From positions 26,068,880 through 26,132,879 of the forward strand of contig NC_082603.1 in the NCBI RefSeq assembly GCF_030936135.1: a stretch of DNA of 64,000 nt, read 5' to 3'. This stretch comes from Gavia stellata. Its lineage: Eukaryota > Chordata > Aves > Gaviiformes > Gaviidae. The notes beneath the pieces were generated by a model. It had not been told where the DNA came from. It made no database searches and worked only from the letters and a program-made list of their open reading frames with translations. Position numbers and translations under genes: made by a program. Positions within the stretch are counted from its first letter, which is position 1. The number at the start of each line of letters is the position of its first letter. Below are positions 6,001-53,505 of this stretch, piece after piece.

Positions 6001-7255
6001 GCACGCTCGGAAAGCAAAGCATCCTTCTCATGCTGTTGTCGCTGCCCCTGCCCAGCCTGCGCATCCATGCCCAGGGCAGCCGGGGCCGCGGGGACTGATC
6101 TCCGGATGCCTTCACCCTCTCGGGAGATCAGCCGGGAAGTCTGGACCGGGGGACAAGGCCATGTGAGAGCACACCCCGCTGCTCCTGCCTTCCCCAGACT
6201 GCAGCGGGGGCTTCCGCAAGGGGAGGAGAGCAGGGTGATGGGGTGCACCGTGCCCCCCATCATCCCCAGGGGAGCACAGCCCTCCTCAGGCAGCGGGGAT
6301 GGAGCAGCCCTGGGGACCCCCAGCATCTCCTCTCCTGCATCCCTTCCTTCTCCGCAGCCCGGTCCCCCGCCCGGCGGGGACTCGGCTCCCGGTGCGCGGG
6401 CGAAGCGATGAGGTCATGTTGCTTAATATAGCGATTTCATCACAGCCCTTCTCCCCAGCAACACGGCCCGGCTGCCGCCGGCTCCCGGCGCTGGCAGAGC
6501 CGCCGCCCCCGCCCCGCAGTGCCGTGCCGTGCCGTGCCGTGCCGTGCCATGCCGTGCCGTGCCGTGCCGCAGGCCCCGGCCGGCAGCTCCCGGGATGCTG
6601 GGCTCAAGGGCGGGCGGGGCGGGGGGGACGCGGTGCCAGGACCGGACTGTGCGGGGCTGGACCGTGCCCGGTGCCACAGTGCCGCCCTCTGGGCAGCGCG
6701 GCCGGGAGGATGGAGATGCTCGACGCAGCCCTCCCTCCCCAGGTTTGAGCAGTACACTGGATCCATCATGTCCCCAACGCCCCCGTGCCATCCCAGCCGT
6801 GAATTTAGGAGCAGGGCTGGGGAGATGGTTTCTCCCTCCTCCGCACACTGCTCATAATCCCTAAGTTCTGCAACACCCTTCCCATTCTCCTAAAAAATCA
6901 GCTTTTTCTTCCCCCTTTCTTTTTCCCTATCGCACCCACAAGAGGCTTTCTCCTGGCCCCACTTCTCGAATAGAAACCCTAAAGGTTTGCAAAACAAAAT
7001 GCTTTTCTCCCTAAAAAAAATTGAGCTTCTAATGAAAAGCCCCAGCCCTGCACCCGCATCCTTCTCAGCAGCATCACACCAGGGTACTGGGGGAGCAGAG
7101 AGGGGCTCACATACAGGCAGGACCTTACAGAGCTGTAATTAGGGCCATAACGAGATCGGAGCCAGTAACCCATCCTTGCTGTGCCCGGGTAACATCACCT
7201 CCACACCCCCCTTCCCGACCAGGGATACAGGGAGGGACGCGGCTCTGGGACTTAC
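1..7255. other. PIK3R3 intronic sequence, no recognisable exon
   Basis: Searching both strands for RhoGAP, SH2 and inter-SH2 motifs of PI3-kinase regulatory subunits, or the p55-gamma start exon, gave nothing. The stretch is GC-rich single-copy sequence with a GATA/AP-1-like island (1165-1235), an LTR-like candidate (about 4120-4440), a CpG-rich patch (about 6300-6720) and a GTGCC repeat. It is taken as intron only because upstream exons of a minus-strand gene lie to its right. Confidence 0.6.
6519..6569. repeat. (GTGCC)n pentanucleotide repeat, about 10 units
   Basis: GTGCC is repeated about ten times with one GTGCC-to-ATGCC interruption, inside a CpG-rich patch of the PIK3R3 intron. Confidence 0.9.
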
Positions 7256-7333
7256 CCGCCAGAAGAGCCTGCTTCAGCTCAGCATCCCCCAGCGCCCCAG
7301 AGGCAGATCTGTAGAGCACCTCACTGTCAAGAC
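7256..7333 (-). CDS. PIK3R3: PIK3R3 exon: early RhoGAP/BH region
   Basis: The exon is 78 nt, phase 1 to phase 1, with acceptor CTCCTCAG and donor GTAAGTCC. It encodes [19 protein letters not shown] followed by KQALLA. This corresponds to the p85-alpha exon reading [20 protein letters not shown]. GLDSE is the same as in p85-beta. It is the most 3' coding exon I can find. The next expected exon, with the RhoGAP core, is not recognisable between 1 and 7255. Confidence 0.82.
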
Positions 7334-10300
7334 CTGAGGAGCAAGCAGCCAGGAGAGAGGGGTCAGTCCTGAGCCCCAAATCCTCCCTCCAGCACAATGT
7401 AAGCGGGCAGGGACTGAGACCACCAAGCTCCCTCGCCCTGCCCACACTGCACGTGTACTGGGGTGTGTGGGGAGAGGTTTGGCTCTAGTGATACTCTTGG
7501 GGCACCTCCGAACACAGGCAGAGCGGGTGGTTGCACGTGTGCACCCACGTACACCCTGCAGATGGATGCTGTGGCTGTCCATACCTTGTTTTTCCAGTGC
7601 CTCGATGAGTCTGGCCATGGTCTGCAGCGCCTGCTCAGGGAGAGTGGGGTGCTCAGTGAGCTCTGCCTGCCCAGGGAGTCCTGTGATGGAGAGACAGGAG
7701 AGGGGACTTGGAAATTCCTGCCTGCAGGAATTCCAGCCTTTTTCCTTGGCTGTCCCAGGACAGGATCAAGCTGCTGCTTTGGCACAGCCACAACCAACAT
7801 TTCGGCTCACGCACATCCAATTTTGGAAAATTTCTCTCTTATTTTATCCTCTTTTTGCAGTAAGAGTCACCCTCAGGGGCTCAGCCACTTGCTGAGATGC
7901 AAAGACCTGCTTGGGCATGTGCCCTGCCCATGGGGAGCATCCCGCCCTGAGCGTGGAGCTCCTTCAGGCCAAAACCCCTTCCCCACCTCTCCTCCCACAG
8001 CACTGATACTGCCCCCCCTCATCACCCACAGCCCTTGGTGGCACCAAGCAGGAGATGGGGGGCCAGATCTGTACCCAGCATGGACACGGCTCCTGGCAGC
8101 TCTCACCCACTTGGATTCTCTGGTGTCTACAACAGGGTTGAGCACAAGCCCAGGGAGGACTCAGTCACCCCATTGGCTGGCACAGACTTCCACCGGCCCT
8201 TGAGGAGCCCTTCAGCCAAACGTGGGCCAGGCTTCCCACAGCGCAAATCCCCAGGTCCTGCTGGCTCCTGGGTTTTATAGCAAGAACACCTCAACTCAGA
8301 CCCTGCCAGAGAGGAGCATACCCCCTGGCAGGGGTGAGAGTGACTCTCCTTACCCCAGGGCAACATCCATCCATCCATCCATCCATCTATCCATCCATCC
8401 ATCCATCCCTCCCTCCCTTCCTACCACCCCAGCTGATAAACCTCTGCACCTGTGTGGGTTGTACCTGACAGAGACCCCAGCAGTGCAGTGCTGGGATTTC
8501 CACACCCCCCCTCTTGTTAGTGGCTTTGAGCCCCCTTGGGAAGGTGGTGGGCAGGGGGCAGGCAGGAGCAGGGGACAGTCAGGGGCTGCCACTGGCCACA
8601 GCACATCAGAGCCGCATGCGACCAATGGGGTGCAGATGGCACCTGGAAAGGCTGATGGGTCGAGAGCTCTTTACCTGTTTTATGTGGTGAGCAGGTCTGT
8701 TCTGCTAGAAATATATTTTAAAAAATTATAGCAAATTATATAAAGCCTGAGTGTGACCTTTCCCCCTAGTGAGGTGTGCTCCAGCCCGGCCAACTCCCTT
8801 GTTAGGTTCATTCTGTCTTTGATTTTTCCTGCCTGGCAGAAGGCAGGGAGCTCCCTTATGAAGCCAAAAGAGCCATAACAATTTTAAGGAATGAATAAGA
8901 AAGAAAAAGGGACTTTGGGCAGGGCCACGCTGCCTTTGACCTTTTGCAAAAACACAATCTGGCTGCGACGCGTGGATCCAGGCTCTGATCTTCACCGCAG
9001 TGATGCCCTGGTGCTCCCTGGAGAATGGGGAGGGATGCAGACCTCCAGCTCACAGGTGGCTGACCCCCAAGCCTGGCAAAAGGGTCTCCTCCGCCATCTG
9101 ATGGGGATGTGCGGGTGCCTCAGGTGGGAACGGGGAAGATTTCAGGGTTTAAAGCAAAGCAGGTGATTGGGACCCCGTGGAAAATGTCCCCACCACAGGG
9201 GTGGTTTTTTGATTAGGGAAAACTGGGTTTTGGCCTCCAAGGTAACGGCTTGGGGAAAGGTGGCAATGGTAAAAAATAACCACCTGTTTCCCCTTGGTGG
9301 AAACAGCAGGAATGGCCCCAAGCTCAGCTTGGAGCTTTAGCCCATCCTCTCCCCTCAGGGTGCCAGGCTGGACCCCAGCATCCTGAAGCACCACTCGGCT
9401 CCAGCCCTGGGTGAAGCGGAGGTGATGCCTTGCAGCAGTGATGCCGCCTGGGACAACCAGGCAGGGGCGAAATAGCCGCTGAGCTCCTGGGAAGTCCCCT
9501 GGGGACTTGGATCTGCCACAGAGCCATTTTTAGGATGTTATTTCATTAAAAAAAGACCATTCCTCCCCACAGAGACAGGCCTGGCTCCGGGGCATGGCTG
9601 GGAAATGCAGTGTCTCTCTCCCATTCAGGGGTCCCCCCGCGGCTTCACCCTGCTCGGGGTCCCCAGGGTTCCCAACCGGCACTGGGGCTCAGTGGGCACT
9701 GAGGGCACGCAGGGCGGTACGCCGCTGTCGCAGAAAAATAAGCATTTGGGCCAGCCAAAACAAATGTCCCTCAAAACCTCCGTCTGGGAATGGAAACAGT
9801 ACGGGAAGAATTTTCCAAAAAAAGAAAAAGAAAAAAGGCCCTTCTCTTCTAAGAGCATGTTGGAGATTTTTACTCTAAGGGAAATCCCACCAGCCGGGAA
9901 GTTTGGGTTTAAACCGACATAAAACGGTACATGCTGCTCTGCTGCTACAGAAAGATGTGGTTGTGGGCCAGGAATGTCCCCTGCCAAGGCACCCACGCAC
10001 CCCGGCATCACCCCAGGAAGGGTGCCCCATGGAGTGGCACCCCACGGCACAGCACTGGGGAGGCAGCACCCAACATCCCCCTGGACAGTGGGTCTGGACA
10101 CAAGACCATGGCCAGAGGATGTCCTGCAGATGGCAGCACCCTCCCCAACCTACCCCAAAACCTGGTTTTAGTGGGTTTTTCCCTATTAAAAAAATCTCGG
10201 TTTTACATTTTTTTAAATTTTAAGTAGTTATCCTCTCGCCCAAGCGCACACCGGGCTGGAGCTCCTGCACCAAGACCTTCCGTACCGGCCAGGCTCTCCA

Positions 10301-12393
10301 GCCAGGCTGCACTTGCTGCTGGGGACGTGCCTGGATCTGTGGGACATCTCCACATCCCTGGCAGTTGTGGTCAGGGGTCCCCTGGGCACATCTCCCAGCC
10401 CCTCGGAGAGGAGCCCATACCGCACCCTGTGTGGGGCAGGCGCGAGGCAACAGTGATGGGCAGCAGGGGCAGAAGCAAGAGGGTGGCTCCATGCTCTCCC
10501 ATCTCTAAAAATACTGGTGAGTGGGGCTGGAGAGCCCTTGGGTCTGCTCCTGTCTGACCCAAGTTGTCCATACTACAGCACTGAGATGGTGGGGCTCTGC
10601 CTGCCAAATAGCCAGGGGCAGAGGGCTTCTTGCATGCCAGTGAGTTTAGCTGGGAAGGGGGCTGACCCCCTAAAAGTGGCCTCCTCCCCCCTGCGATGGC
10701 AGCACATAGCTGCTCGCTGACCCAGGGCCGTGTCTGCCTCGGCACACTTGGAACATCAGTCAGGGAGGAGCACCCCTCTTTTGGTGAGGGGAGGCAGAGG
10801 GGGTTTCCCAGCATCCCTGTCTCCCCCTTTTGGGGGGCCTGAGGGGCAGGATCCACATGGCAAACCCCATACGCAGTGGTGGATGGTGTCAGGGGAAGGA
10901 GTTGCCCCATGCCAGCTGAGTCCTGCCGTGCTCAGCCCAGGGACCAGGTGGCCCCCACCCTCTTAAATCATGGTGGCAAGGGGGCCTTGAACATATCTTG
11001 GAGGGGGATGGACTCCTTGTCAGTGGGTGCCCCTCTAAACCCGGGGCCAAGATACCCCCCATGCCCAGCTAGCCCAGGAGGGAAACAGCCTCTCTGGTTA
11101 CCACATCTGCGCCTTGGTCCCAAACCGGGCAATGAGGGTGCCCAAGGCACCGGGCCGGCAGCCGGGCAGGTTTTGGACAGCCACGGCTAACGGTGGTGCC
11201 ACTGTCCCCCCAGTGATGTCTCCTGGGGAAGGAGAGCACCACGGCTTTGGCTGCGGTTGCTGGGTCGTGCTTGGCTGGAAGGGGAGTTTCTTACTTTGCC
11301 TTTTTTATTTATTTTTTTTAGCTTGGATACATTATGCAACTGCTGTGAAATCCCTCCCAGCCCCAACGCTCTTGGCCACGGTAAGTGATGAGGGCAGAGC
11401 GGCTCCACGAACTTAGCAGATCCCGGCGGAGAAATGGCTGGGGTCCCCACGCCAGGAAAGGCCCTGCCGAATATTCCCCCTAGTGCCGTGCTGCAGCCCC
11501 CGGGGATGGAGGACCCCCATGGGGACTGACCCCACCGTGTGCCCAGACCATCCCCTGTCCCAGCTTGCACAAAGTGACTGCGAGGCCAGGAGCTGGCTGG
11601 GTGCCAGCACTCACCCGGCCACCGAAAGCAGCCAGAATCAGGTGCCGCAGCAGGGGGGAGAAGAGCAGTTGGAAGAAAAGGTCCCCAGGGACTGCCATGG
11701 GGCTTTCTGCTCCTCCCTGGGGGGCCAAAGGGCTCCTGCATCTTTTCCTGCGTTCTTACAGACACGGACCCCCCTCAGCTATCCCATGCCAGCACAGCAG
11801 CCAGCCCGGGATGCTGGAGAGGAGCAACCCCTGCAGCGTGTTTGTCTCAGGGGGAGTGACACCCCAGGAACCCCCTGCCCCTCCTGCGACTGCCTCGATG
11901 CACCGGGGCGAATAATTCCCAGGGCAGCTCCTCTTTCTGGTGCCACCCCATCCCAAGGGCGGATTCCCACTGAGCCATCCCAAAAGCAAGCATGCACCCG
12001 GGCTCCACATCACCCTCGCCATCTTGCAAGGGACACCCACCCATGGGCTCCCACCTTCCCGCTCCCCCAGCACTCACCCCAGGGTGCGGGGGTCCCAGCG
12101 GGTGGTGGGGGCAAGGGCCGTGGCCTGGCCTTGGTGGCGGTGGCGACAATGCGTGTGGGACCGAGGTACTCCACGTAGGTGCCGGGGAAGTTGCCGTGCT
12201 CCTTGGTGCGCTCGTTGAGGCCGTGGAGCCAACCCTGGGGGCTGCGCTCATCCCCGTCCTTGTAGTCGGGGCCGCTGAGCAGTCCGGCCCTGCTGACCGT
12301 CAGCACGTCCCCAGGGCACAGTGCCAGGTCCTCCTCCCGGTCCTTCTGGTACTCGTAGAGAGCCCGGTACTGCAGCCCGTCCGAGGAGGCCAT
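7256..12393 (-). CDS. PIK3R3: PIK3R3 (PI3-kinase regulatory subunit gamma), SH3-containing 5' part; partial
   Basis: Regulatory subunits of class IA PI3-kinase bind the p110 catalytic subunit and recruit it to phosphotyrosine proteins. Three coding exons are visible on the minus strand: 12393-12078, 7680-7585 and 7333-7256 (316, 96 and 78 nt; 163 complete codons). All junctions are GT-AG in phase 1, so they join in one frame. Exon one encodes an SH3 domain with the ALYEY and [10 protein letters not shown] signatures, then a proline-rich tail. The next two encode [10 protein letters not shown] and LDSEVLYRS, matching the start of the p85 RhoGAP/BH region. The remaining BH, SH2 and inter-SH2 exons are not in the window and should lie past the left edge. 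PIK3R3 is chosen over PIK3R1 or PIK3R2 because TSPAN1, POMGNT1 and LURAP1 follow in the human 1p34 order. The protein alone resembles p85-beta about as well. Confidence 0.85.
7585..7680 (-). CDS. PIK3R3: PIK3R3 exon: linker and start of RhoGAP/BH region
   Basis: The exon is 96 nt, phase 1 to phase 1, with acceptor ATCACAG and donor GTATGG. It completes the glycine started in the SH3 exon and contains [20 protein letters not shown]. This aligns with the p85 segment that reads LTLPDLPEQF...LLVKLVEAIE in p85-beta. The exon length is divisible by three, so skipping it would keep the frame. An AT-rich near-palindrome, GGAAATTCC...GGAATTCC, lies about 35 nt upstream of the acceptor at 7710-7734. 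Confidence 0.85.
7681..12077. other. PIK3R3 intron after the SH3 exon
   Basis: This 4.4-kb intron holds the ATCC microsatellite and two AT-rich patches (about 8700-8745 and 10,170-10,230). No further exon of a p85-type protein was found on either strand. Confidence 0.75.
8364..8418. repeat. (ATCC)n microsatellite
   Basis: CATC/ATCC units run for about 45 bp with one CTAT interruption, then decay into CCCT units. It lies in the PIK3R3 intron between the SH3 exon and the next coding exon. Confidence 0.92.
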
Positions 12394-12426
12394 GGCAATG
12401 GCGTGGCGTGGTGTGGGTCACGCTGC
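12078..12426 (-). CDS. PIK3R3: PIK3R3 first coding exon: SH3 domain
   Basis: The ATG is at 12393-12391, with G at -3 and G at +4, so it is a strong start. The 105 codons begin [17 protein letters not shown]. Residues about 5-80 form a p85-type SH3: ALYEY in the RT loop, [14 protein letters not shown] in place of the usual GWLNGYNE, and [12 protein letters not shown] at the end. An arginine/proline stretch ([12 protein letters not shown]) follows, comparable to the first proline-rich motif of p85. The exon ends TGG G before a GTGAGT donor. The proposed 5' boundary is the TTCAG acceptor just above 12426, leaving about 33 nt of 5' UTR; that boundary is inferred from the motif only. Confidence 0.88.
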
Positions 12427-13280
12427 CTGAATCCAGCCAGGCATCGGGGGCCCGGGGTGCCCACACAGAACAGGTATGGCCGGGCTGGGGCAACGCAGCG
12501 GGAATGGGAGCGCTCCCTTCCCTGCTCAAGCAGAATAAAATCTCAGTGTTGGAAAATCTCCACGTTGGAGAGCGGCTCCTGACCCCTCCAGCCCCAAAAT
12601 TGCTGCGGAGCCACGCTGGTGCCCAGGGCTCAGCAGGATTGGCTCAGGTGTGGGCACAGAGCCTTTTCATCACCGGGGCAAATGAAGGGGAGCAAACGAT
12701 GCTAATCGGGGCGCTGGCTACAAATGTGCCGTCCTCTTCTCAGCCTGGTCTCATCTGCTTGGCGCTGGAGACCTCCTTCTCTCTGCTGGAGAGAAAGGCA
12801 GCGCGTTAGCAACCAAACCGCTGTCTTGACCCCAACCCCACCGCCCTGTCCCCCATCCCAGCCACCCCATGCCAGGGACAGCCCAGCAGCTTGCCCAGCT
12901 CCCGCTTCCCGGGGAGCTCCCGCCAGCAAGGCTCGGCCGCTGCGTGCAAGGAAAGTGCCGGCAAGAGTCTGGAAAGTAGGGCAAGAGATCACGCCACGGG
13001 CTTTTAAAATAGACATATGTGCTGAGAAACCTCCCGCCGCACGCGGCTCCCCTCCGGCAGCTCCAGCCCGGCATCACTACATGGAGCCAGTGGATGAAGA
13101 TATAGGATTTTCGGGTGGTTTTGGGTGGTGGTTTTTTTTTTTTTTTTTTGTTCCGTTTTTTGGGTGCATTTTAAAATATTCCTTCTAGAGAGACAGCTGC
13201 TGCCGACCCGCTGCCCCCCAGCTTCCCAGGGAAGAGGGACGGATGGAGGGCTGGATGACGAGCAGCAGCTGCGGGGCTAT

Positions 13281-13350
13281 CCGTCTGTCTGTCCATCCGT
13301 CTGTCTGTCCATCCATCCGTCCGACCATCCACCCGTCCGACCATCCACCC
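13281..13350. repeat. Degenerate tetranucleotide repeat (CTGT/CCAT/CCGT family)
   Basis: About 70 bp of interrupted four-base units (CTGTCTGTCCATCCGT and variants, later CCGACCATCCAC) lie in PIK3R3 intron 1, about 50 bp from the splice donor. Confidence 0.85.
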
Positions 13351-13382
13351 GCCGCCCAGACAGAGCCCTCCCGCTGCCCGCG

Positions 13383-13400
13383 CCCCCCCCCCCCCCCCCC
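13383..13400. repeat. C18 homopolymer adjoining the PIK3R3 exon 1 donor
   Basis: There are eighteen uninterrupted C on the plus strand. On the transcribed minus strand this is an 18-G run two bases after the GTAA of the predicted donor, so pre-mRNA would carry a G-quadruplex-capable tract at the 5' splice site. The exact count may be unreliable in assemblies. Confidence 0.85.
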
Positions 13401-13404
13401 TTAC

Positions 13405-13600
13405 CGGGCGCGGCGGCTCCCCCGGCGGGAGCGGAGAACGGGAGCGGAGCCGCCCCGGCCCCGCCGAGCCGCGCTCCGGCGGTGATGTCAGCGTCCCTCC
13501 TCCCCCTCCCCGGTAGCCGGGCGCCCCCCCCCGCCGCAGCGCGGCGGGGGGGGGCGCCCGGCTACCGGGGAGGGGGGGGAACTCTCAGAATAGGTGGATG
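13405..13600 (-). promoter_or_regulatory. PIK3R3: PIK3R3 CpG-island promoter and probable noncoding first exon
   Basis: GC- and CpG-dense sequence lies about 1 kb upstream of the SH3 exon. On the minus strand a good donor (CCCG|GTAAGG) places the 3' edge of a noncoding first exon at 13405. The transcription start is not fixed by sequence and may lie within or near the inverted repeat at 13502-13576. The inference rests on the donor, the CpG density, and the absence of any other donor-bearing CpG island upstream of the SH3 exon. Confidence 0.6.
13502..13576. repeat. Perfect 36-bp inverted repeat with 3-nt spacer
   Basis: The left arm 13502-13537 and right arm 13541-13576 are exact reverse complements, separated by AGC. 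The arms contain CCCCTCCCCGGTAGCCGGGC, a run of nine C (G in the right arm), and GCCGC/GCGGC at the loop. The hairpin would be extremely stable. It sits in the PIK3R3 promoter island just upstream of the predicted first exon. It may be a real cruciform element or a fold-back artefact of sequencing or assembly. Confidence 0.9.
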
Positions 13601-14253
13601 ATTTCATCCCCAGATGCAGCATCTCTGCTCCCAAATTGCCTCCTCTGAGGGATGGGGGGGTCTCCATCCATCCTTAGGGATGCTATAAGACAGAGGAGGA
13701 CCAGCACCCCATGGATTCCCCCCCCGCCCCGCCCCATACCAGCCAGCTCTCCCTGCCCCAGCACCCAGCCCCCCCAAAGAGAACCCTATCCTTTAGCCAG
13801 GATCAAAAACACGCACAGGACAGGCAAGAGCTCCTACGAAGAATCCCAGCCCAGGGATGCTCCGGTTCCTCACTCTCCTCCTGAGCATTTGCTCAGAAAT
13901 GTTCCCCAGATCCGGGGTAAGGCCTGGGCACCCCATAAAACAGCACAGAGAGCTCCCGCATGCAGCAAGGCTCCTTAAAAATTAACAAGGCAACAATTAA
14001 ATATAACAGGGCAGACAGCTTGGAGGGGGCTGGCAGGGCTCATACAGAAAGGGCCAAGCTCAGCCACAGCGGGGAAGTGCACATCGCCAGCCCGTGGCAA
14101 CAGCAGTGCTGTCGCGTGCAACAAGAACATCAGTTCTCAGCTCACTTCCAGCCAGGGGATACCCATGCCTGGGGTGCCTCTGCCCTGAGGTGGTTCGTGT
14201 GTGGTTGTTTGTGGGGGTTTTTTTTGGTTTGGGGTTTTTTTTTTTTTTTTGTA

Positions 14254-21031: not shown

Positions 21032-24000
21032 ATGGGGTGCTTCACCTTTATCAAGGTCATGATGATCCTCTTCAACCTGGCCATATTTGTAAGTGCACCC
21101 CAGCTGCTGTCCTGCCCGGGGGGGCCGAGCCTGGCAGCCACCTCGTCCGCCCCGGGAAACGGGGGTGCGAGAGCAGCGCCTGGGGAGCACCCTGAGCCAG
21201 GCGTGGGGTGGGCAAAGCCTGCCCGTGTGGGCTCTCCTGCCCCTCCGTGTCCCTTTCTGTGGGGGATTGTAGGCACTTGGGCGCGGGTGGGACTTGCGCT
21301 CCTGGGACCCCGGTGGGGTGTGAGATCTGGTCTCTGGCCCCGAGCTGAGGACTGGAGCCCTGGGCTTGCGGGGGTCTCTCGCTCCAGTGGTGTGCCCAGC
21401 TCTGGCCAAAGCCCAGGGGACTGTGCTGGGCTCTAGGGACAGTGGCTGTTGCATCAGCCACCCGTGTCCTTGCCTGTGTTAAAGCGCTGGTGAGGGGTGC
21501 CGTGTGCCCCAGAGCAGGGGGGTTTGCTGGGTCCCTGCCTGGGGGGCTCTGTCTCTGTAGGGGGGCTGCCCATGTGCATGACAGCAACCTGTGGTGTTGC
21601 GGGTCTTGGATATCGGGGGTCTCCGTAGCACACACAGCCTCTTCTCCCACCCAGGGCAAAGGGTAGTGGAGCTCCTGAGAGCTACCCTGGCTCTGCAGGA
21701 GCAATGGAGCCACCTGGAAGGGGGTGCAGTGGGATATAGCCTTGGGAAGGGGGGGTGCAGAGCCTCCAGGCTTGCCCTGGTGAAACACTCCCTCCATGAA
21801 GCTCCTGCCAGGACTTGGGGCTGGTGGGGAAGGTCGAGGGGGTGGCGGGCAGGGCTGGGGCAGGCCGGAGGCAGCCCTGAGCTGACCTTGCTGGGAGCGT
21901 GTGAATGTCTGGGGCCAGGGGCTGCCCGGCTGTTCCCCTGGGTGAGGAGGCAGCTTCCCCGGATAGAGGAACTTGTGGCCGCGTGATGGTGGCCAGAGTC
22001 TGAGCTGGCTATGTGGGCTTCTCCGGGGTCAGGGGGTGGCTGGTGGCACTGCTGGCTTGGCAGCCCTGCATGGGGGTTTCTGCTCTGCTGCTGGCACCGA
22101 AATGCCTTGGGCTGGGGAATGGGGCAGCTGTGACACCACAGATGGGGATGTGCTGGTGGTGGGGTGTGTTTTGGGGTAGTGATCCACCCAGCCACCCCAA
22201 GCGTGCGGGGGCAACGCCCTGCGCTGCCCTCGGTGGCCACAAAGTCTTGCTTTGGTACGGTGGAAACTTGCAGAGGGGAGAAATACCTGTGCCAGGACCT
22301 TCCCCAAATCCCAGATCTCTGCCTGCCTGGGAGCTGACATTGTCTCTCTCCTCCCAGCTTGGTGGCGGGACCCTCCTGGGAGTTGGCATCTGGGTCACAG
22401 TGGATGGTCAGTCGTTCCTGGATATATTTGGGGCGCTTTCCTCTAGCGTCCTGCAGGTTGTGAATGTGAGCTACTTCCTCATCGTCATTGGTGCCATCCT
22501 GATGGCGATCGGCTTCCTCGGGTGCTGCGGTGCCCAGAAGGATAGCAAGTGTCTCCTGATGATGGTATGGACCTGACTTACCTCCTTATCAAGCCTCTTT
22601 TGAGCGGGGTGTCTGGTGGGGAGATCTGAGGGACAGACAGATTTCTCTGTGGAGATGTGATCCTTGGATGTGCCCATGTGGTGGAAGGCTGGGCAGACCT
22701 TGGAAAGGCAATGCTGGACCCAAAGTCTGCCCTGGGCAGGGGTGAAAGGAAGCAGAAGCTGGTGCTGAGCAGAGGTCTCTCTTGGAGCATGTCTGGAGAG
22801 ATCAGCCCCATGCAGACGGAGGGTTGGAGGACTCCAAGGTTGTGCTGCTTCTGCCTTGGAGCAGAGCTGAAGTCAATAAGACAGGGCTTGAGCCCTGAGG
22901 TAGGGTCCTGCAGCCCTTGAGAAGCAGATGGGTTCCTGGGGGCCCTGTGGACTCTGGCTGTTGCTTTGACCTCCCTCCCTTTGCTGTATCCTAGTTCTTC
23001 TCGGTGGTGCTGATCATCTTCATTGCCGAAATTGCTGCTGCCGTGGTGGCTCTGGTCTACACAGGTCTTGTGAGTGGCATATCTGAGTCTCGGGTTGGGC
23101 TAATCTGGGACCTGTCCCACCCCTTGGGAAAACAGGAGACTTTTAAGGGGCTGGCAGTGCTGCCCATGGATGGGGAAGCTGAGAGGTGGGCACTGCTGCA
23201 GGAGGAAGGGATGCTGGTCCCTGCTGGCACCAGCTACGTGGGCAGGCTGGGGCAGCCTGGCTTGGGTGAGGTTGGAGAGAACAGGGGTTCCCATTGCCCT
23301 AGAGAAATGAAGATTTGGTACAAGTTTCACCCACTTCTTTCTTTCAAAACCCTTAGCCCAGTACCAGCTGAGGCTTGACGCCTTTCTAGCTCTGATGGTA
23401 GGAGCCACAGGGGAGAGGCAGTCCCTAATGCTTCATGCTGAGCAAATTCAACCCCTTATTAGGCACCCGAGAAACCACCTGGGGAGAAAGGTGACTGTTC
23501 CCACCCTTGTGGACTTTGCCTCATTAGGCACAGGAGAAGTCAACCGCAGGGCAAGCATCATTCCTGGCTCCTGCAGTTATGCTGCTTATCAGATGACTCA
23601 CAGGTCATAAATGACCACGGTGCCATAAAGCACTGGTTAGTGGAGAAGAGGCCACGCTGTCCTCGGGACAAAGGGACACGGTGTGACATGCTCCTGACCA
23701 TGCTGGGTCTGGTTGGTCTCTTCCCTATGGGCTGAGACCAGTACAGGGGTTCTCAGCTCTGTGGTGCTCCCCAGAACTTTCTCTGATGGTGTTTCTCTGC
23801 CTCTTCTTCCAGGCAGAGACACTGCTGACGGCTGTGGTGACTCCTCTCCTGAAGGAGAAGTACGGGACAGATAAGAGTCTCACGCACATCTGGAATGTCA
23901 CCATGACAGAGGTGCGCTGCACCCTGGGGCTCCCACCTGTGGGTCAGGATGCTCCCAGCACAGGCTTGGTGGTGCACACCTGGGTGGGCCAGTGGGATGG

Positions 24001-25337
24001 GAATGGGGACACCATCGCAGTCCTGGATGTGGTGAGCTGTCACCACCCCATCAGCTTCCCAGGTGCCTGGGACCTACCCGCTTTGGATCTACTGGTCCCA
24101 TGGCTGGGGTGAGAACTGTGCATGCTGGAGTGTGAGGCAAAATCCTGGTCCCAAGAAGGCAATTGAGCACCCCCCCAGAGATGAGTTGACCTGGGTGACC
24201 CCCCTCCATGGAGCAGTGGGGTCCAGACCATGTCTGACCCAGGAGGGAGACCTGCAGGATGCTCTCCCCATCCCTTCCTCTCTCTCCCTCTTAGGTCCAT
24301 TGCTGTGGCCTGAATAACTACACAGACTTCACCGACTCCCCCTGGCATAAGGAACAGGGAACCTACCCAGAGCCCTGCTGTAGGAACTTGCAGCCCTGCA
24401 ACGACACGCTTGCCGCAACAGAAGAAGTCCCGGTACGGACACGCCAGTGGCTCTTGCCTTCTGGCAGAGCCTGATTTGGGGTGTGCCCTGGCACAGGGAG
24501 GGAGATCTGTCCTGCAGCTCCAGCCCCAGCTCTGGACATGGTGGTCCCATGGGCTTTAAGTCCTGGGGGATGCTGTGGTGGCCTTGGCTTCTCCCTGGTG
24601 GAGACAAGCAAAGATGCTACCATTGCTCCGGTCCTAAAGGGAGCTCTGCAGCAGGGTGGCATGCCTGGAGCTGAGCACGAACCCAGGCACCACTCTGTCT
24701 TTTTGGGTGATTTCCCTGCCTCTTCCCCTCCTCCCCCCCAATACTGTGCTTTGGACTGAGAAGCGGCTGAGGTGAGTTGCCCCCTGAAGCCTGCAGACCT
24801 TCTCCATGGCTGTGCAGCTCTAGGCTGGAGAACTGTACCTCCCTTTCTGGCGACGTTTTGCCCCAGAAGTTGGGAGATCGCTACCCCTTGCTCATCCTCA
24901 CCTGCCTGGTTGCCTTCTGCAGGGTTGTTTCAGTCAGATCTTGGAAGAAATCAGGACTAATGCAGGTGTGGTGGGTGGTGTGGCAGCTGGCATTGCTGCC
25001 TTGGAGGTGAGTGCCTGAGCATCACTGTGGTGCCTCCTCCTCCTTGTACCTGGAGGTGAGCGGTGGGGCTGGGACCAGCCTGGGTGGCTGAGGGGCTGCA
25101 GGGGGCTGGTGCAGCCCCATGGACCACCATATGCCCCAGGGTGGCTACTGAGCCTTCTTCCCTGGGCACACCCAGCTCTTCCTCCTTATGTGCATGGGAT
25201 GGATGCTACGAGCTGTGACCCAAACCCATGCTGGGTGGGGGGGACACACTTAGGTGGGCTGACTTGCCTCTTGTCATCCCTAGGTTGCGGCCATGGCGGT
25301 TTCCATGTACCTGTACTGCCAGCTGGATCAGAAATGA
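21032..25337 (+). CDS. TSPAN1: TSPAN1, tetraspanin-1
   Basis: Tetraspanins organise membrane microdomains; TSPAN1 is an epithelial member. Seven coding exons: 21032-21088, 22358-22564, 22995-23069, 23813-23911, 24295-24432, 24923-25006 and 25284-25337 (57, 207, 75, 99, 138, 84 and 54 nt), all phase 0 with GT-AG introns, giving 237 residues against 241 in human. The start has A at -3 and G at +4. Four membrane segments lie near residues 9-32, 53-78, 87-111 and 205-231. GFLGCCGA follows TM2. The large loop has the CCG motif (149-151) and six cysteines (149, 150, 174, 175, 181, 194). Sequons are N141-V-T, N154-Y-T and N182-D-T. Identity rests on [28 protein letters not shown] and [11 protein letters not shown], all close to human TSPAN1, plus synteny. 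Confidence 0.96.
21089..22357. other. TSPAN1: TSPAN1 first coding intron
   Basis: This 1.27-kb GT-AG intron interrupts TM1 after residue 19, the usual tetraspanin position. Nothing else was recognised in it. The other five coding introns are 277 to 743 bp and equally featureless. Confidence 0.85.
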
Positions 25338-34749: not shown

Positions 34750-47889
<13,140 letters not shown>

Positions 47890-49022
47890 AGTCATTGGGG
47901 CTAGCACAGGGGCAGCCGTATGGGGTGTGGGTCAGGGTGCGTGCTGGTCCGCTTTCATGTCCATCGGGGCTCCCTGCCAGGATGGGATGGGTGCAGGGTG
48001 AGGGAGATGAGCCCCTTCAAACCCTCTCCCCAGCAAAGACAGGGCATGGCACAAGCAGTGGCCATGAATGACACTCATGTACCATAAGCAAAGCCCCATG
48101 GAGCCTCCCTGCCTGCCAGCACCCCCAGCCCTGCCGGGAGCGATCCAGGAAGCCAGGCTTTGGTGGAGAACTGTAAGCAAGGTGATGGGAAGTCCTTGAA
48201 CCCATGGGTCAGTGAGAACCTCTGCTCCAGACCAACACCTTAGCAAGGCCACTGCAGTATGGTAGGCCCACTCCCAGACTCTGGAAAAGAAAAGCGGCCA
48301 AGAGGCACGAGCCGGTGACAGGCCCCGGACCAGCAGGTGTTATGCAGGTGCCAACACTGGCCATATTGGCCTGTGGGGTCCTTGGTTGGGAGAGGCACCC
48401 TCCCCACTTGCAGCAGCAGGACTGTGAAGCAGCACCACCCCCACTAGTGGGGATGCAGCTAGCCTAGACATGGGGACCAGAGCTGGGCCATAGCGCTGCT
48501 GGAGATCCCAGCACCCCTGGGGCAGAGGGGCTGTGCCCAGCTGAGGCCAGGCTCCCCATGCAACCTGCTGGGCCTGGGGTGGGATGCAGAGGCCCGGGAG
48601 AGCCAGGGGCCCAGCCGGAGCACAGACCTCCCCCAGCAGGGCCAGAGAGGGTGGGGAGCCCACAGCAGCCGCCCAGGGCGGGACATGACTGGGGAACCCA
48701 GAGCCCTCAGGGGAAGGGCAACGGGACCCCAGCGATGCCGGAGGGAGGAGTGCGGGTATCGCAGAAGGACCCAGGCACTCGGGGGCGGGGGGCCCAAGGC
48801 TGCGGGGAGCGGTCGCGAAGGGGACCGAGGCGCTCCGGGCGGGGGGGAGGAAGGGAGAGCCAGGCGTCCAAGGACGGAGGCGGCAAGGAGCGGCGGCCCT
48901 CCCGGAGCAGTGGCGGCGGGGGGGGGGGGGGGTGTCCAGGCGCTTCGGGACCGCGGGGAGCCCGGGGGGGCGGGGAGCCGGGCGGTACGGCCCGGAGGGT
49001 GTGTGCCGGCAGCACTACTCAC

Positions 49023-49405
49023 GGTCCACGCAGCGAGGCTGCGGCGAGGCTGAGGCGGGCCGGGGCCGGGGCGGGCCAGGCTGAGCAGGGCAGGGCCCGG
49101 CTCGGCAGTGCCGCCGCCGCCGCCCCGCGAACCCTCAGCGCCAGCGCGGCCGCGCCGCTTCCGGCGCCGCAGAGACGCCGCGGGGGCGGAGCCGGAGACA
49201 GCCCCGCCCCGGGCTCCGCCCCCCAGCGCCGCTCTGCTCTCCCCGGCGGACTTCGCTGGTGCGCGGCCACCCCCCCGCCCCGGTGCGGGCAGGTGGAGGC
49301 GGGGGGCGGAGCGAAGGGCGGGGCCGGCGGGCGGGGGCGGGGCTGGGGCTCGGGCCGGGGTGACAGCGCGGCCGCCGCCCCGCGCGGCGCCGCCGCCCCA
49401 CCCGC
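49023..49405. promoter_or_regulatory. Bidirectional CpG-island promoter of POMGNT1 and LURAP1
   Basis: On the minus strand a GTGAGT donor (49022-49017) marks the 3' edge of a noncoding POMGNT1 exon 1 ending at 49023. LURAP1 begins at 49406 on the plus strand, so under 400 bp separates them. The stretch is extremely CpG-rich, lacks an obvious TATA box and carries GCTTCCGGC (49157-49165), an ETS/GABP-type site typical of such promoters. The island extends to about 48,700 and 49,620. Confidence 0.75.
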
Positions 49406-52400
49406 ATGGAGGGCGGCGGGGAGGCGCTGCCCGCCGACCTGCGGGAGCTGGCCAGCAAGGTGGGACGGCGGCCGCCCGCCGGACTGCTGCGGGGGCTGCG
49501 GGCCGAGACCGCCCCCGCACCGCCGGCACCGCCGGCACCGCCGGCACCGGCCCGCGGCGCCCGCCCGCCGCTCGCCGACCGCCTCCGGGCGCTCCGCCTC
49601 GAGCTGGTGAGTCCCGCGGCACCGCGGGCACTGCCTGCCCCCCGCCCCCGGATAACAGCGTCCCCCCCGGGATAACCGCATCCCCCCCGGGCAACGGCCT
49701 GCCACCCCCCGGTAACAGCCCCCTAATAGTGCCCCGCGCTCTGCCTGCATTTTGGGGACCCCCCCCCCCCTTTTGCTCTTTCCTGTATGGGTTAACAGCC
49801 CCCAGCCCATACCCCTCCCGGCCTTTCTCTGCCCCCCGGCCCAAGCAGCATCCCCCCCCGGGGTCCCACGGACCCCTCTGCCCTCCTCCATCCTGCCCCC
49901 CACACCACACGCACCCCCCGGGCCCTGGCTGCGGCGGGGACCGGGGTGTCCCGGGGATCGGGATTTAGGGCAGGGACCTTCGCCAAGGGCACGGTGGCGG
50001 GTCCGGTCCTGCGCGCCTGTCCCCTCCCCCCCCCGGGTGTCACCCCCTGGGTGACAAGGCACAAGCATCGCCGGGAGCTTTCCCGGGGTTCGCTTCCTGC
50101 TGGGGCTTCTCCAGTGGCTAGTAAAGGGTTGGGCTCCGGTGGCAGCCTTTCCCGGGAACCGTGGGAGTGCTGGTGGCAGCTTTCTCGCCTCCCTCTCTTC
50201 GTGGAGGGAGCAAATACCGGCGATGCCTGCGCCTCCGGGAAACGTGGCGAGATTGGGCAATGGGTTCAAGTGTTGCTGGGGGAAGGGACTCTCCCACGCA
50301 CACACACGCCGGGCAGGAATAAGCATCGTTTCCATAGGGAAAGAGGCTAAATACAATACACCCGCATCCCTGCCTGCCACTCGGGGGACTGGGGACCCAC
50401 CCAGCCTGAGCCATCCCCACCGGTGCTTTGCCCGATTCAATGTTTCCCATCCATGTAAAAGCTTTCATCGTCCCTCCGCTTTCATCCTCCCTCCACTTTC
50501 ATCCTCCCTCCGCTTTCATCCTCCCTCTGCACCGGCTTCCAGGCTGCACTCTGACCAGAGGAGAAAGGTCTGCGGGCCCTGGGTTGCTCAGAGGAGGAGG
50601 AGGAGGAGGAAGCAGCCATGGTGTTTGCTCTGCCCAGGTACAGGCAGGGTCGTCCCACAGTCTGCAAGGTCTGGCTTTGGCCGTGCGTTACTAACCTCTG
50701 CTCGGAAAGACTTTTCCTTTCTCTGCCCTGCTGCTTCTCGCTGGCCGGTAAAGAAGCTGGGACACCTCACACCCAGGGCAGCAGCCTGGAAACAGCACCT
50801 GGGTGCCCAAAACCCAGCACAGGGCTCCCCCCATCTCCCCATCCCCATGAACAGGAACCCAAATTCCCCTCCCAGCAGCAGAGACCAGCAAACCCAGTGC
50901 TCAGAGGAGAAGCTGACCTGGGAGGGGGCGGTGGGAGGAGAAGGCAGCAAAAACCCACTCTTGCCTCCCGGTCTGAGGAGGATGTTTTATCCCTAGGGCT
51001 AGATGTCTTGAAGGGAGAAGGTGCCTGCAGGTTTCATGCGTGCTGGGGAGGGGAGGAGGACGGTATCCCCCCTGCGGGGATGCTCTCCCCACTCTGCCTG
51101 CCCCTAGAGAGCGTGAGGAGGAGTGTGACGGTGCCCTGTACGGCTGTTCTTGGTACGATGTTGGTGCGGTGTACCCATGACCGCATATGGAGGAGTATAG
51201 GGAGCAGCTGGACCTAGGTCTCCTCCCACGCTACCCTTGCCTTGCTGGAGAGGGGGTTTTTTGGAGTGCAACCGGGGTGGGTCAGGCTGGCCTGAAGTAG
51301 CAGCGAATCGATGGCCAACTCTTTCCAGCAAACGATATGGAGTGCGGGGAGCGTTTCCTCACCCTCTGCTCTCGGGGTGGCTCCCCTGGCATCTCTGACA
51401 GCCACAGTTGCATGTGGCAGAGAAAAACGGGGAACCCCCCCATCAGGGGTTCCCAGCCTTCCTCCTCCCACGTCTTCTCCCTGCCAAGGCCAGAGGCTTT
51501 AGCAGCGTGTGCAGAAAAGTCCATTGTAGGCAGTTTCTGAAATAACTTGCCTAGAAAGGAAGTTTCTGCACTTCAAAGCTGGCTCCTGCCCCAATCCAGG
51601 CACATCGCTGCTATTTTTTATTTAAATCCAGCTTGAGGAGCGTGGGGAGGAGATGGGAGATCCCTTTTTTTTTTGTGTCCTCTCGACTGAGAGGCGTCAC
51701 GTGCCGAAACCCTGGCTGGACTTTTCCCAGGCTCCTTCCTTGGATGCTTTTGTTGCTGTGCTTGCTGTGGGACTGGAGGCAGGGGTCTCGAGGGACTGGC
51801 AGGTCACCCGTGGGCGGGCGGGTGACTCTGAGGGTACCGGATATTGGGGACCGGGCGCTGTGCTTAGAAATTATCCCGGGGGACTGCATAGATTTGCATT
51901 ACAGCTTGTTGGTGCTGGGGCCAGGGTGTGTTTGTGAACGAGTCCGTGGGCATCCGCAGCTCCCAGGCTGCCTGTACCTGTCCTGCAGTGGGTTTCTCTC
52001 CCTCTCCCCCCGCTGCCACCTTATTCCCTTTCCCGGCAAAATATTTGCATCCTGCGCAGGGGAAATCCAGTGGCTTTTGGCGGCCAGTATCACACAGACA
52101 GGAATGTCTTGGCATGCGGGGCTTTCTGTTAGGAAAACAGATGTTTCTGCAGCAACTGAAGTTTTGCAAAGAGCTTCCCGGGCTCGGAGGGGCAGGAGTC
52201 AGTGAGGCGAGTGGTGTGATCAGCAGTGCCTGTCCCCCCACAGTCCTCCCCTGGTTTTGGAGTGATTTGGGTCTCAAGCTCCAAATCCTGCTAAGTCACG
52301 TTGTCACCAGGCTTGGATCAGACCCTAGAATGAGAAAAGTAAATGCATGAAGGAGCCTGACCAAAACAGCCCGGGGAGTTGCTGATGGTCCAGACAGACC

Positions 52401-53505
52401 CTTGCCCTGAGCAATGCCCCTGCCTGGTCCTCTTGCCCTGCCAGCAGCCTCCCAGGGCTTGGGGGATGCTCTGGACTCAGATCTGCACCCAGTGCCTCCA
52501 GTTCCTCGCTTACCCGTGTCCCCATAGGAGACAGTGATATAAGTGCCCTGGATTTAGTTCCCTGAGCGGGTTGGTGGCCAGTGGATGCCATAAGTCATTG
52601 GTCCCCAATGGTCGTGTCCCCAGGTCTTGGCCAGGGTCCCCTGGGGTGGTTCCCTGCAGGGTGCTCTCCCATGCTGTGCTGTTCATAAAGTAGCTCAGGA
52701 GACCCGAAGCCATCGCGGTGACACCTCTGCCAGGGTGGGCTGGGACTTGGGGCCCTCGGCCACCGGGGTCACCTTGGTCCCCTCAAAAGCCCCACGCTCT
52801 CTATCTCCCCACCAGGCCTACCTGCGAGCGGTTGACGTGAAGATCCTGCAGCAGCTGGTGATGGTGAACGAGGGCATCGAGGCGGTGAAGTGGCTGCTGG
52901 AGGAGAGGAGCACGTTGACCAGCCGCTGCAGCAGCCTGGCCAGCAGCCAGTACAGCCTGGTGGAAAGCCAGGCGACCTCGCGGCGGGGCAGCTGGGACAG
53001 CCTGCAGGACCCCAACGACAGGCTGGACAGCATCTCCGTTGGTAGCTACCTGGACACGTTGGCCGATGACATGGATGAGTATTCCCAAAACGCTGCCGAA
53101 ACCGCCGCTGCATCTGCACCGGGCAGAGCCCTGGTCAGGGCGGAGCAGGATTGGGTCAGGATCGACCCTGAGAGGGGTTTTGCAAAGCAAGAGAAGGGCA
53201 AAGCGGAGCATGAGTGGCCCCACGTGGACCTCTCCCCGCCTGGGTTGCCCCAGGATCACCAGTTTGCTAAGGAGCCCCAGGTGGCCAACGGGTATTTGGG
53301 CCAGCAGCCCTCCTCTCTGGAACCAGGCAGAGACACCAAATTGCTGTCAGGGGCCGGGGAGAGGCTGGGAAAGGGGAACCCGGGTGGGAAGGCTTGGAAA
53401 GCTGAGGCTGACTTTGAGAACTGCAAACTCAACAGCAAACTGCACCTGGAGTACGATGCCCACTGGCGCTGGCTCCAGTCTCAGGACGATGTGACATTCT
53501 TGTAG
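49406..53505 (+). CDS. LURAP1: LURAP1, leucine-rich adaptor protein 1
   Basis: LURAP1 (LRAP35a) links MRCK kinase to myosin 18A in lamellar actomyosin flow and has been reported to activate NF-kB. Two exons, 49406-49606 (201 nt) and 52816-53505 (690 nt), join in phase 0 across a 3.2-kb GT-AG intron, giving 296 residues; human has about 239. Exon 1 has DLRELASKVGRRPPAGLLRG, a Pro/Ala repeat, then LADRLRALRLEL. Exon 2 opens with the near-identical AYLRAVDVKILQQLV, EGIEAVKWLLEERSTLTS and SSQYSL blocks, then SRRGSWDSL. The poorly conserved middle is longer than in human. The protein ends DDVTFL as in human, a class I PDZ-ligand-like terminus. The ATG has G at +4 but C at -3. Confidence 0.95.
49515..49553 (+). 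repeat. 9-bp coding repeat in LURAP1 exon 1 (Pro-Ala-Pro tract)
   Basis: ACCGCCGGC units repeat about three to four times in frame and encode APAPPAPPAPPAPA. The tract replaces a non-repetitive stretch in the human protein, so it is probably a lineage-specific expansion. Confidence 0.85.
49607..52815. other. LURAP1: LURAP1 intron
   Basis: Single 3.2-kb intron with GTGAGT donor and CACCAG acceptor. It begins with a degenerate C-rich repeat (about 49,644-49,726; CCCCCCGGGATAAC-like units) and contains a 17-bp minisatellite. No coding exon was recognised. Confidence 0.85.
50461..50528. repeat. 17-bp minisatellite, four units
   Basis: GCTTTCATCCTCCCTCC is repeated four times with single-base differences in the LURAP1 intron. 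Confidence 0.93.

Follow-up and report, generated by a model that had tools for sequence, protein, structure and literature searches.

Class IA PI3K regulation has been described from mammals, in which two genes encode p85 and a third encodes p55 only. Homologs of p55-gamma have been reported to be devoid of the Rho-GAP domain, with metazoan sequences taken from Ensembl (PMC4617754), and p55-gamma has been described as being without about 300 to 400 N-terminal residues (PMC11720314). Six words relating to birds or to isoform choice are absent from the text of the former paper (PMC4617754). In other papers, the label p85-gamma was given to Pik3r3 in a table (PMC10062291) or was used in the text but replaced by p55-gamma in the table (PMC9768098), and tortoise PIK3R3 was named in enrichment tables only (PMC7449761). 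Among the matches listed from the open-licence literature, no title or abstract beginning presented a PIK3R3 product with an SH3 or RhoGAP domain. A long PIK3R3 may well be present already in automatic annotations of birds or reptiles.

We analyzed a stretch of 64,000 nucleotides of the Gavia stellata genome, referred to here as the window (C10:26068880-26132879, where C10 is contig NC_082603.1; assembly of 1.32 Gb in 1185 contigs). The window very likely covers the 5' portion of a PIK3R3 gene with the full p85 architecture and two starts (i.e., for a 731-aa p85-gamma and a 463-aa p55-gamma). The PIK3R3 locus was taken as 90 kb of C10, which contained no N and agreed exactly with window positions 1 to 21,000. 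All p85 matches on C10 near the window were on the minus strand and ran from 26.081 to 26.004 Mb. The resulting gene model is as follows.

Window 12393-12078, minus strand: coding exon 1 (ATG, p85-type SH3, PR1-like motif RPRPLPPPP); GT donor, phase out 1
Window 7680-7585, minus strand: coding exon 2 (linker and BH/RhoGAP start); flanked by AG and GT, with phase 1 at both ends
Window 7333-7256, minus strand: coding exon 3 (BH/RhoGAP), within the Pfam RhoGAP match; flanked by AG and GT, with phase 1 at both ends
C10:26067210-26067079, minus strand: exon 4 (BH), beyond the window
C10:26064207-26064006, minus strand: exon 5 (BH), beyond the window
C10:26063640-26063555, minus strand: exon 6 (BH), from a splice-and-phase scan, 365 bases after exon 5
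C10:26032283-26032178, minus strand: p55-gamma start exon, inside intron 6 (E = 2e-19 against typed human p55-gamma)
C10:26014618-26014507, minus strand: exon 7
C10:26012164-26012066, minus strand: exon 8
C10:26010610-26010430, minus strand: exon 9
C10:26009621-26009496, minus strand: exon 10
C10:26008732-26008590, minus strand: exon 11
C10:26007437-26007261, minus strand: exon 12
C10:26006433-26006359, minus strand: exon 13
C10:26005981-26005811, minus strand: exon 14
C10:26004384-26004183, minus strand: exon 15

The six upstream exons (exons 1 to 6) correspond to SH3, PR1, and BH/RhoGAP, and the nine shared exons (exons 7 to 15) correspond to PR2 (proline-rich), nSH2, iSH2, and cSH2. Splicing of exons 1 to 15 yielded 731 aa and splicing of the p55-gamma exon to exons 7 to 15 yielded 463 aa, each with zero internal stops. 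All 14 introns were GT-AG, and both starts (the exon 6 side and the p55-gamma exon) reached exon 7 in phase 1. An earlier sequence-only reading of this DNA had claimed that the SH3 exon and the next two exons splice together in frame, which agrees with the phase 1 joins and GT-AG borders found here. Its placement of p85-type exons at PIK3R3 proved to be an understatement, as the remaining BH exons and the SH2 part follow beyond the window, also on the minus strand of C10. The joining to the PIK3R3 SH2 exons that it envisaged is also favored by the predicted protein: the upstream exons are in frame with the SH2 exons, and the p85 domains of the product lie above the Pfam cut-offs.

On the minus strand of the raw sequence, the SH3 exon has an open frame that starts with the ATG at 12393 and continues to position 12078, where a GTGAGT donor follows. 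When typed human proteins were compared with the window by tblastn, the SH3 exon matched p85-beta (E = 3e-23) and p85-alpha (E = 5e-20), exon 2 had weak matches (best E = 0.16), and exon 3 had no listed match in its own reading frame. For the SH2 part, the same search yielded nothing better than an E value of ~1.6 within the window, chance hits with E values of a few tenths aside. Thus, from the window, only the SH3 exon exceeds chance, and exons 2 and 3 are supported via the whole gene.

Exon 6, which BLAST missed, was sought by scanning for open frames that resemble exon 6 of the paralogs and are bounded by suitable splice sites in the required phases. The exon listed above scored 32, against 1 for the only other candidate in the 49-kb stretch. 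Across the 90-kb locus, the next best of nine candidates also scored 1, and the antisense controls reached a maximum of 16 for the locus (22 candidates) and −4 for PIK3R1 (6 candidates). Chance similarity was ruled out for exon 6 by these scores (32 versus 1 on the same strand and 16 for the best antisense candidate).

In the 731-aa model, SH3, RhoGAP, two SH2, and iSH2 domains were above the Pfam cut-offs in one frame. The RhoGAP match (E = 7e-21; residues 128 to 272) is independent of exon 6, because these residues sit in exons 2 to 5. The SH3_1 match was partial, covering half of the profile (24.0 bits versus a cut-off of 22.9), and was likewise narrow in bird p85-alpha (23.7 bits). Regarding known structures in the PDB, the N-terminal 312 aa matched residues 2 to 314 of human p85-alpha (E = 2e-67), and the SH3 part matched p85 SH3 structures with E values down to 1e-24 (p85-beta SH3, 3o5z). 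Structure prediction for the SH3 exon alone gave no usable fold (mean pLDDT, 45).

The assignment of the locus to PIK3R3 had been made from synteny, and it was upheld by the p55-gamma-specific start exon, the SH2/iSH2 grouping, and the neighboring genes. The SH2-iSH2-SH2 part grouped with human p55-gamma and not with p85-alpha or p85-beta (FastTree, six sequences; local support, 1.000), and its domains were 93 to 98% identical to those of human p55-gamma. Three of the neighbors lie in the window.

Window 21032..25325, plus strand: TSPAN1 exons, outside PIK3R3; typed human TSPAN1 gave six tblastn hits, from E = 1e-18 (best) to 0.11 (weakest)
Window 36518..37223, minus strand: POMGNT1 exons; a typed POMGNT1 fragment gave three tblastn hits, the best with E = 1e-27
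Window 49406-49606 and 52798-53502, plus strand: LURAP1 exons; typed human LURAP1 gave tblastn hits with E = 2e-6 and 1e-39

A MAST-family kinase gene (C10:25952689-25959408), taken as MAST2 and named from position and similarity, lies ~45 kb past the last PIK3R3 coding exon. TSPAN1, POMGNT1, LURAP1, and MAST2 form the human PIK3R3 neighborhood. A UQCRH query matched nothing in the window at E values up to 0.5. The human gene, whose product is p55-gamma (461 aa), is thus the same gene by start exon, SH2-iSH2-SH2 identity, and neighbors; it differs in that its product starts at the p55-gamma exon, whereas the G. stellata gene has intact SH3 and BH exons upstream.

A genome search with typed p85-alpha detected three p85 loci, i.e., C44 (PIK3R1), C32 (PIK3R2), and C10, and the paralog models comprised 724 aa (PIK3R1) and 727 aa (PIK3R2). 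PIK3R1, which encodes p85-alpha and p55-alpha, resembles PIK3R3 in its domain order, in its 15-exon layout, and in a p55-type exon located within intron 6 in both genes, but it is a separate gene with lower identity to PIK3R3 (SH3, 55%; BH, 39%). PIK3R2, which encodes p85-beta, shares the domain order and exon layout and has the nearest SH3 (63%) and BH (42%) in the genome, but it too is a separate gene, and the search for a p55-type exon in it gave no convincing match (best E = 3.0). The BH identity between PIK3R1 and PIK3R2 was 45%. Eight of the 15 exons (exons 4, 5, 8 to 12, and 14) had equal lengths across the three genes, and lengths were not forced. Phase agreement among the paralogs, including the shared phase of exon 2, is partly built in, because the script used for the PIK3R1 and PIK3R2 borders mostly demanded the PIK3R3 phases (two PIK3R2 exons were placed by hand).

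The age of the upstream half was assessed with an SH3+BH tree of five sequences (bird PIK3R1, PIK3R2, and PIK3R3 and human p85-alpha and p85-beta; JTT+G4), for which 5 of the 15 possible trees were compared, each representing one placement of the PIK3R3 part. The best placement was outside both bird-human pairs (AU, 0.957). Placement with bird or human p85-alpha had an AU value of 1e-6; that with bird p85-beta was rejected by AU (0.002) but kept by SH (0.18), and that with human p85-beta, a sequence that failed the composition test in the tree data, was only marginally rejected (AU, 0.049; KH, 0.054; SH, 0.23). A position outside both pairs suggests that the upstream half predates the bird-mammal split and that the human p55-gamma-only gene is a reduced form. 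The tree evidence favors the earlier suggestion of an ancestral form, with the upstream half probably lost on the way to the present human gene. A tree of the SH3 exon, which the sequence-only reading had proposed as a check, was less decisive: with five sequences, it did not choose between a position outside both pairs (AU, 0.53) and one with human p85-beta (AU, 0.59).

The context of the start ATG at 12393 (GCCATTGCCATGG) is good, in keeping with the strong Kozak context that had been claimed, and CpG-island-like 500-bp bins lie 5' of exon 1, where a CpG promoter had been proposed.

Window 12872..13871, minus strand: CpG-rich stretch 5' of exon 1; three overlapping 500-bp bins, o/e 0.62-0.80, GC 0.59-0.70

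This stretch is a probable promoter of the long form. One further CpG-island-like 500-bp bin covers the SH3 exon itself, and a CpG-rich stretch also lies 5' of the p55-gamma exon (C10:26032501-26034000). The outer edge given by the earlier reading, 12426, held in part: an AG immediately precedes it, a short way 5' of the ATG, but that AG was not listed as acceptor-like in our scan, which favored other sites upstream of the ATG (e.g., before 12785 and 12484). Separately, a second CpG-island-like stretch was observed in intron 3, 0.4 to 1.1 kb past exon 3 (window 6122-6871; o/e 0.68-0.81; GC 0.70-0.72), and is possibly another promoter. The 1.3 kb 5' of the start (window 12394-13721) contained 19 ATGs, each with a stop before the start codon; if some of these fall in the 5' leader, upstream frames may hold back the long form.

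We infer that a long p85-gamma mRNA joining exons 1 to 6 to exons 7 to 15 is made in G. stellata, the one genome from which the bird evidence for a long PIK3R3 comes. A transcript from the upstream CpG-rich promoter would skip the p55-gamma exon and encode p85-gamma, and an internal promoter would give p55-gamma. This working would parallel that of PIK3R1 (p85-alpha and p55-alpha), with a long and a short product sharing one p110-binding half. The iSH2 and SH2 sequences are conserved, and p110 and phosphotyrosine binding is predicted from them; by analogy with the p85 family, p85-gamma would bind and restrain p110 through iSH2/SH2, and phosphotyrosine would recruit it. In contrast to p55-gamma, it could also associate with proline-rich partners, bind GTPases via BH, and form pairs with other p85 chains by way of SH3-PR1 and BH. 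According to the p85 literature, the added half allows dimers mediated by SH3-PR1 and BH, binding of PTEN and GTPases, and altered PI3K restraint (PMC7458397, PMC5593529); carried over to p85-gamma, the same effects would be expected. The N-terminal half would have been present in the bird-mammal common ancestor and lost en route to the human gene.

Alternatively, exons 1 to 6 might be a silent remnant, intact yet unused or only recently dropped, so that the species makes p55-gamma alone, as humans do. We consider this unlikely. The BH part has diverged from those of PIK3R1 and PIK3R2 (39 to 42% identity), and its differences at codon position 2 are slightly higher in the PIK3R3 pairs than between the other two genes: the fractions at positions 1, 2, and 3 were 0.42, 0.33, and 0.67 for PIK3R2 versus PIK3R3 (183 codons), 0.47, 0.36, and 0.70 for PIK3R1 versus PIK3R3 (185 codons), and 0.48, 0.29, and 0.69 for PIK3R1 versus PIK3R2 (185 codons). 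Overall, the pattern is that of selection on the protein; old divergence dominates it, and at position 2 the signal is a little weaker in the PIK3R3 pairs. Against a remnant, the 910-bp frame and all splice sites are intact despite a separation that is probably older than the bird-mammal split, and the CpG-rich stretch sits upstream. Under neutral decay, such a frame would have a mean life of 4 to 11 My and a chance of staying intact for 50 My of 1e-2 to 3e-6, both being rough values based on assumed substitution rates of 1-2e-9 per site per year, with indels at 5 to 10% of substitutions.

It is very unlikely that exons 1 to 6 belong to a transcript of their own, terminating short of the SH2 exons and encoding an SH3-BH protein only. 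Intron 6 is 49 kb long, which counts against the long form in that all of it would need splicing out, and it contains the p55-gamma start and its CpG-rich stretch; P3R3URF is also listed in human databases as a separate upstream reading frame gene. However, the donor at the end of exon 6 fits the consensus and has the phase required by exon 7, and PIK3R1 has the identical layout with its p55 exon within intron 6. Least credible of all is that the locus or its upstream half is PIK3R2 or a later PIK3R2 copy, a reading to which the MAST-family gene near PIK3R2, the nearest SH3, and an SH3-only tree that does not reject a grouping with human p85-beta would lend some support, but against which stand the complete PIK3R1 and PIK3R2 loci in the same genome, the p55-gamma exon and SH2 part, the adjoining TSPAN1, POMGNT1, and LURAP1, and the full SH3+BH tree. 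As a candidate identity for the locus itself, PIK3R2 (GC-rich, with a MAST neighbor) was ruled out by the presence of PIK3R2 and a MAST-family gene on C32 and of PIK3R1 on C44.

If the two-start PIK3R3 gene holds true, a full bird p85-gamma would change the count of p85-type subunits, and the p55-only state of PIK3R3 would be derived, with the short human form apparently reduced from a longer ancestral gene. It would also suggest an ancestral two-promoter gene whose outputs were split later (i.e., PIK3R1 both, PIK3R2 p85 only, and human PIK3R3 p55 only). Insulin and growth-factor signaling in birds would be affected, with different p85 dosage and dimers.

Several residues of known role are retained in the predicted protein, as the earlier claim of conserved motifs had it: the SH3 residues Y12, Y14, D21, W55, P70, and Y73 and the RPLP core of PR1. 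Other BH positions show differences (I127Q, I133A, M176L, and R228A), and given these changes any activity of this BH domain is putative. R274 of p85-alpha has been implicated as a RabGAP arginine (PMC7458397). Its equivalent is present as R270 in the PIK3R3 model and as R in bird p85-beta, and bird p85-alpha has K. A more speculative scenario, which we regard as doubtful overall, is that the ancestor of birds and mammals already had in PIK3R3 a third complete p85 gene (p85-gamma and p55-gamma), that mammals dropped the p85-gamma half, and that birds run three full p85 subunits; with the bird RabGAP arginine in p85-gamma and p85-beta, the GTPase-directed work given to p85-alpha in mammals would move to other paralogs. 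In the PIK3R1 BH exons (C44:25605001-25625000), bird p85-alpha has K at R274 and G at R151 of human p85-alpha, and bird p85-beta and p85-gamma both retain arginines equivalent to R274 and R151.

Other observations concern base composition and the surroundings of the three genes. Third-position GC was 0.80 in PIK3R3 exons 1 to 6 versus 0.45 in exons 7 to 15, and it was even over comparable stretches of PIK3R1 (0.36/0.37) and PIK3R2 (0.81/0.83). Window 48001-50000 is very GC-rich (0.68 and 0.80 per kb), contains the first LURAP1 exon, and is probably the LURAP1 promoter region. Four MAST-family loci were found, namely, the C10 gene described above, C32:2233691-2235812, C44:25221579-25232060, and C38:100689-102923. 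Three of these lie near PIK3R genes, including those ~14 kb from PIK3R2 and ~350 kb from PIK3R1, an arrangement that fits an ancient whole-genome duplication in early vertebrates.
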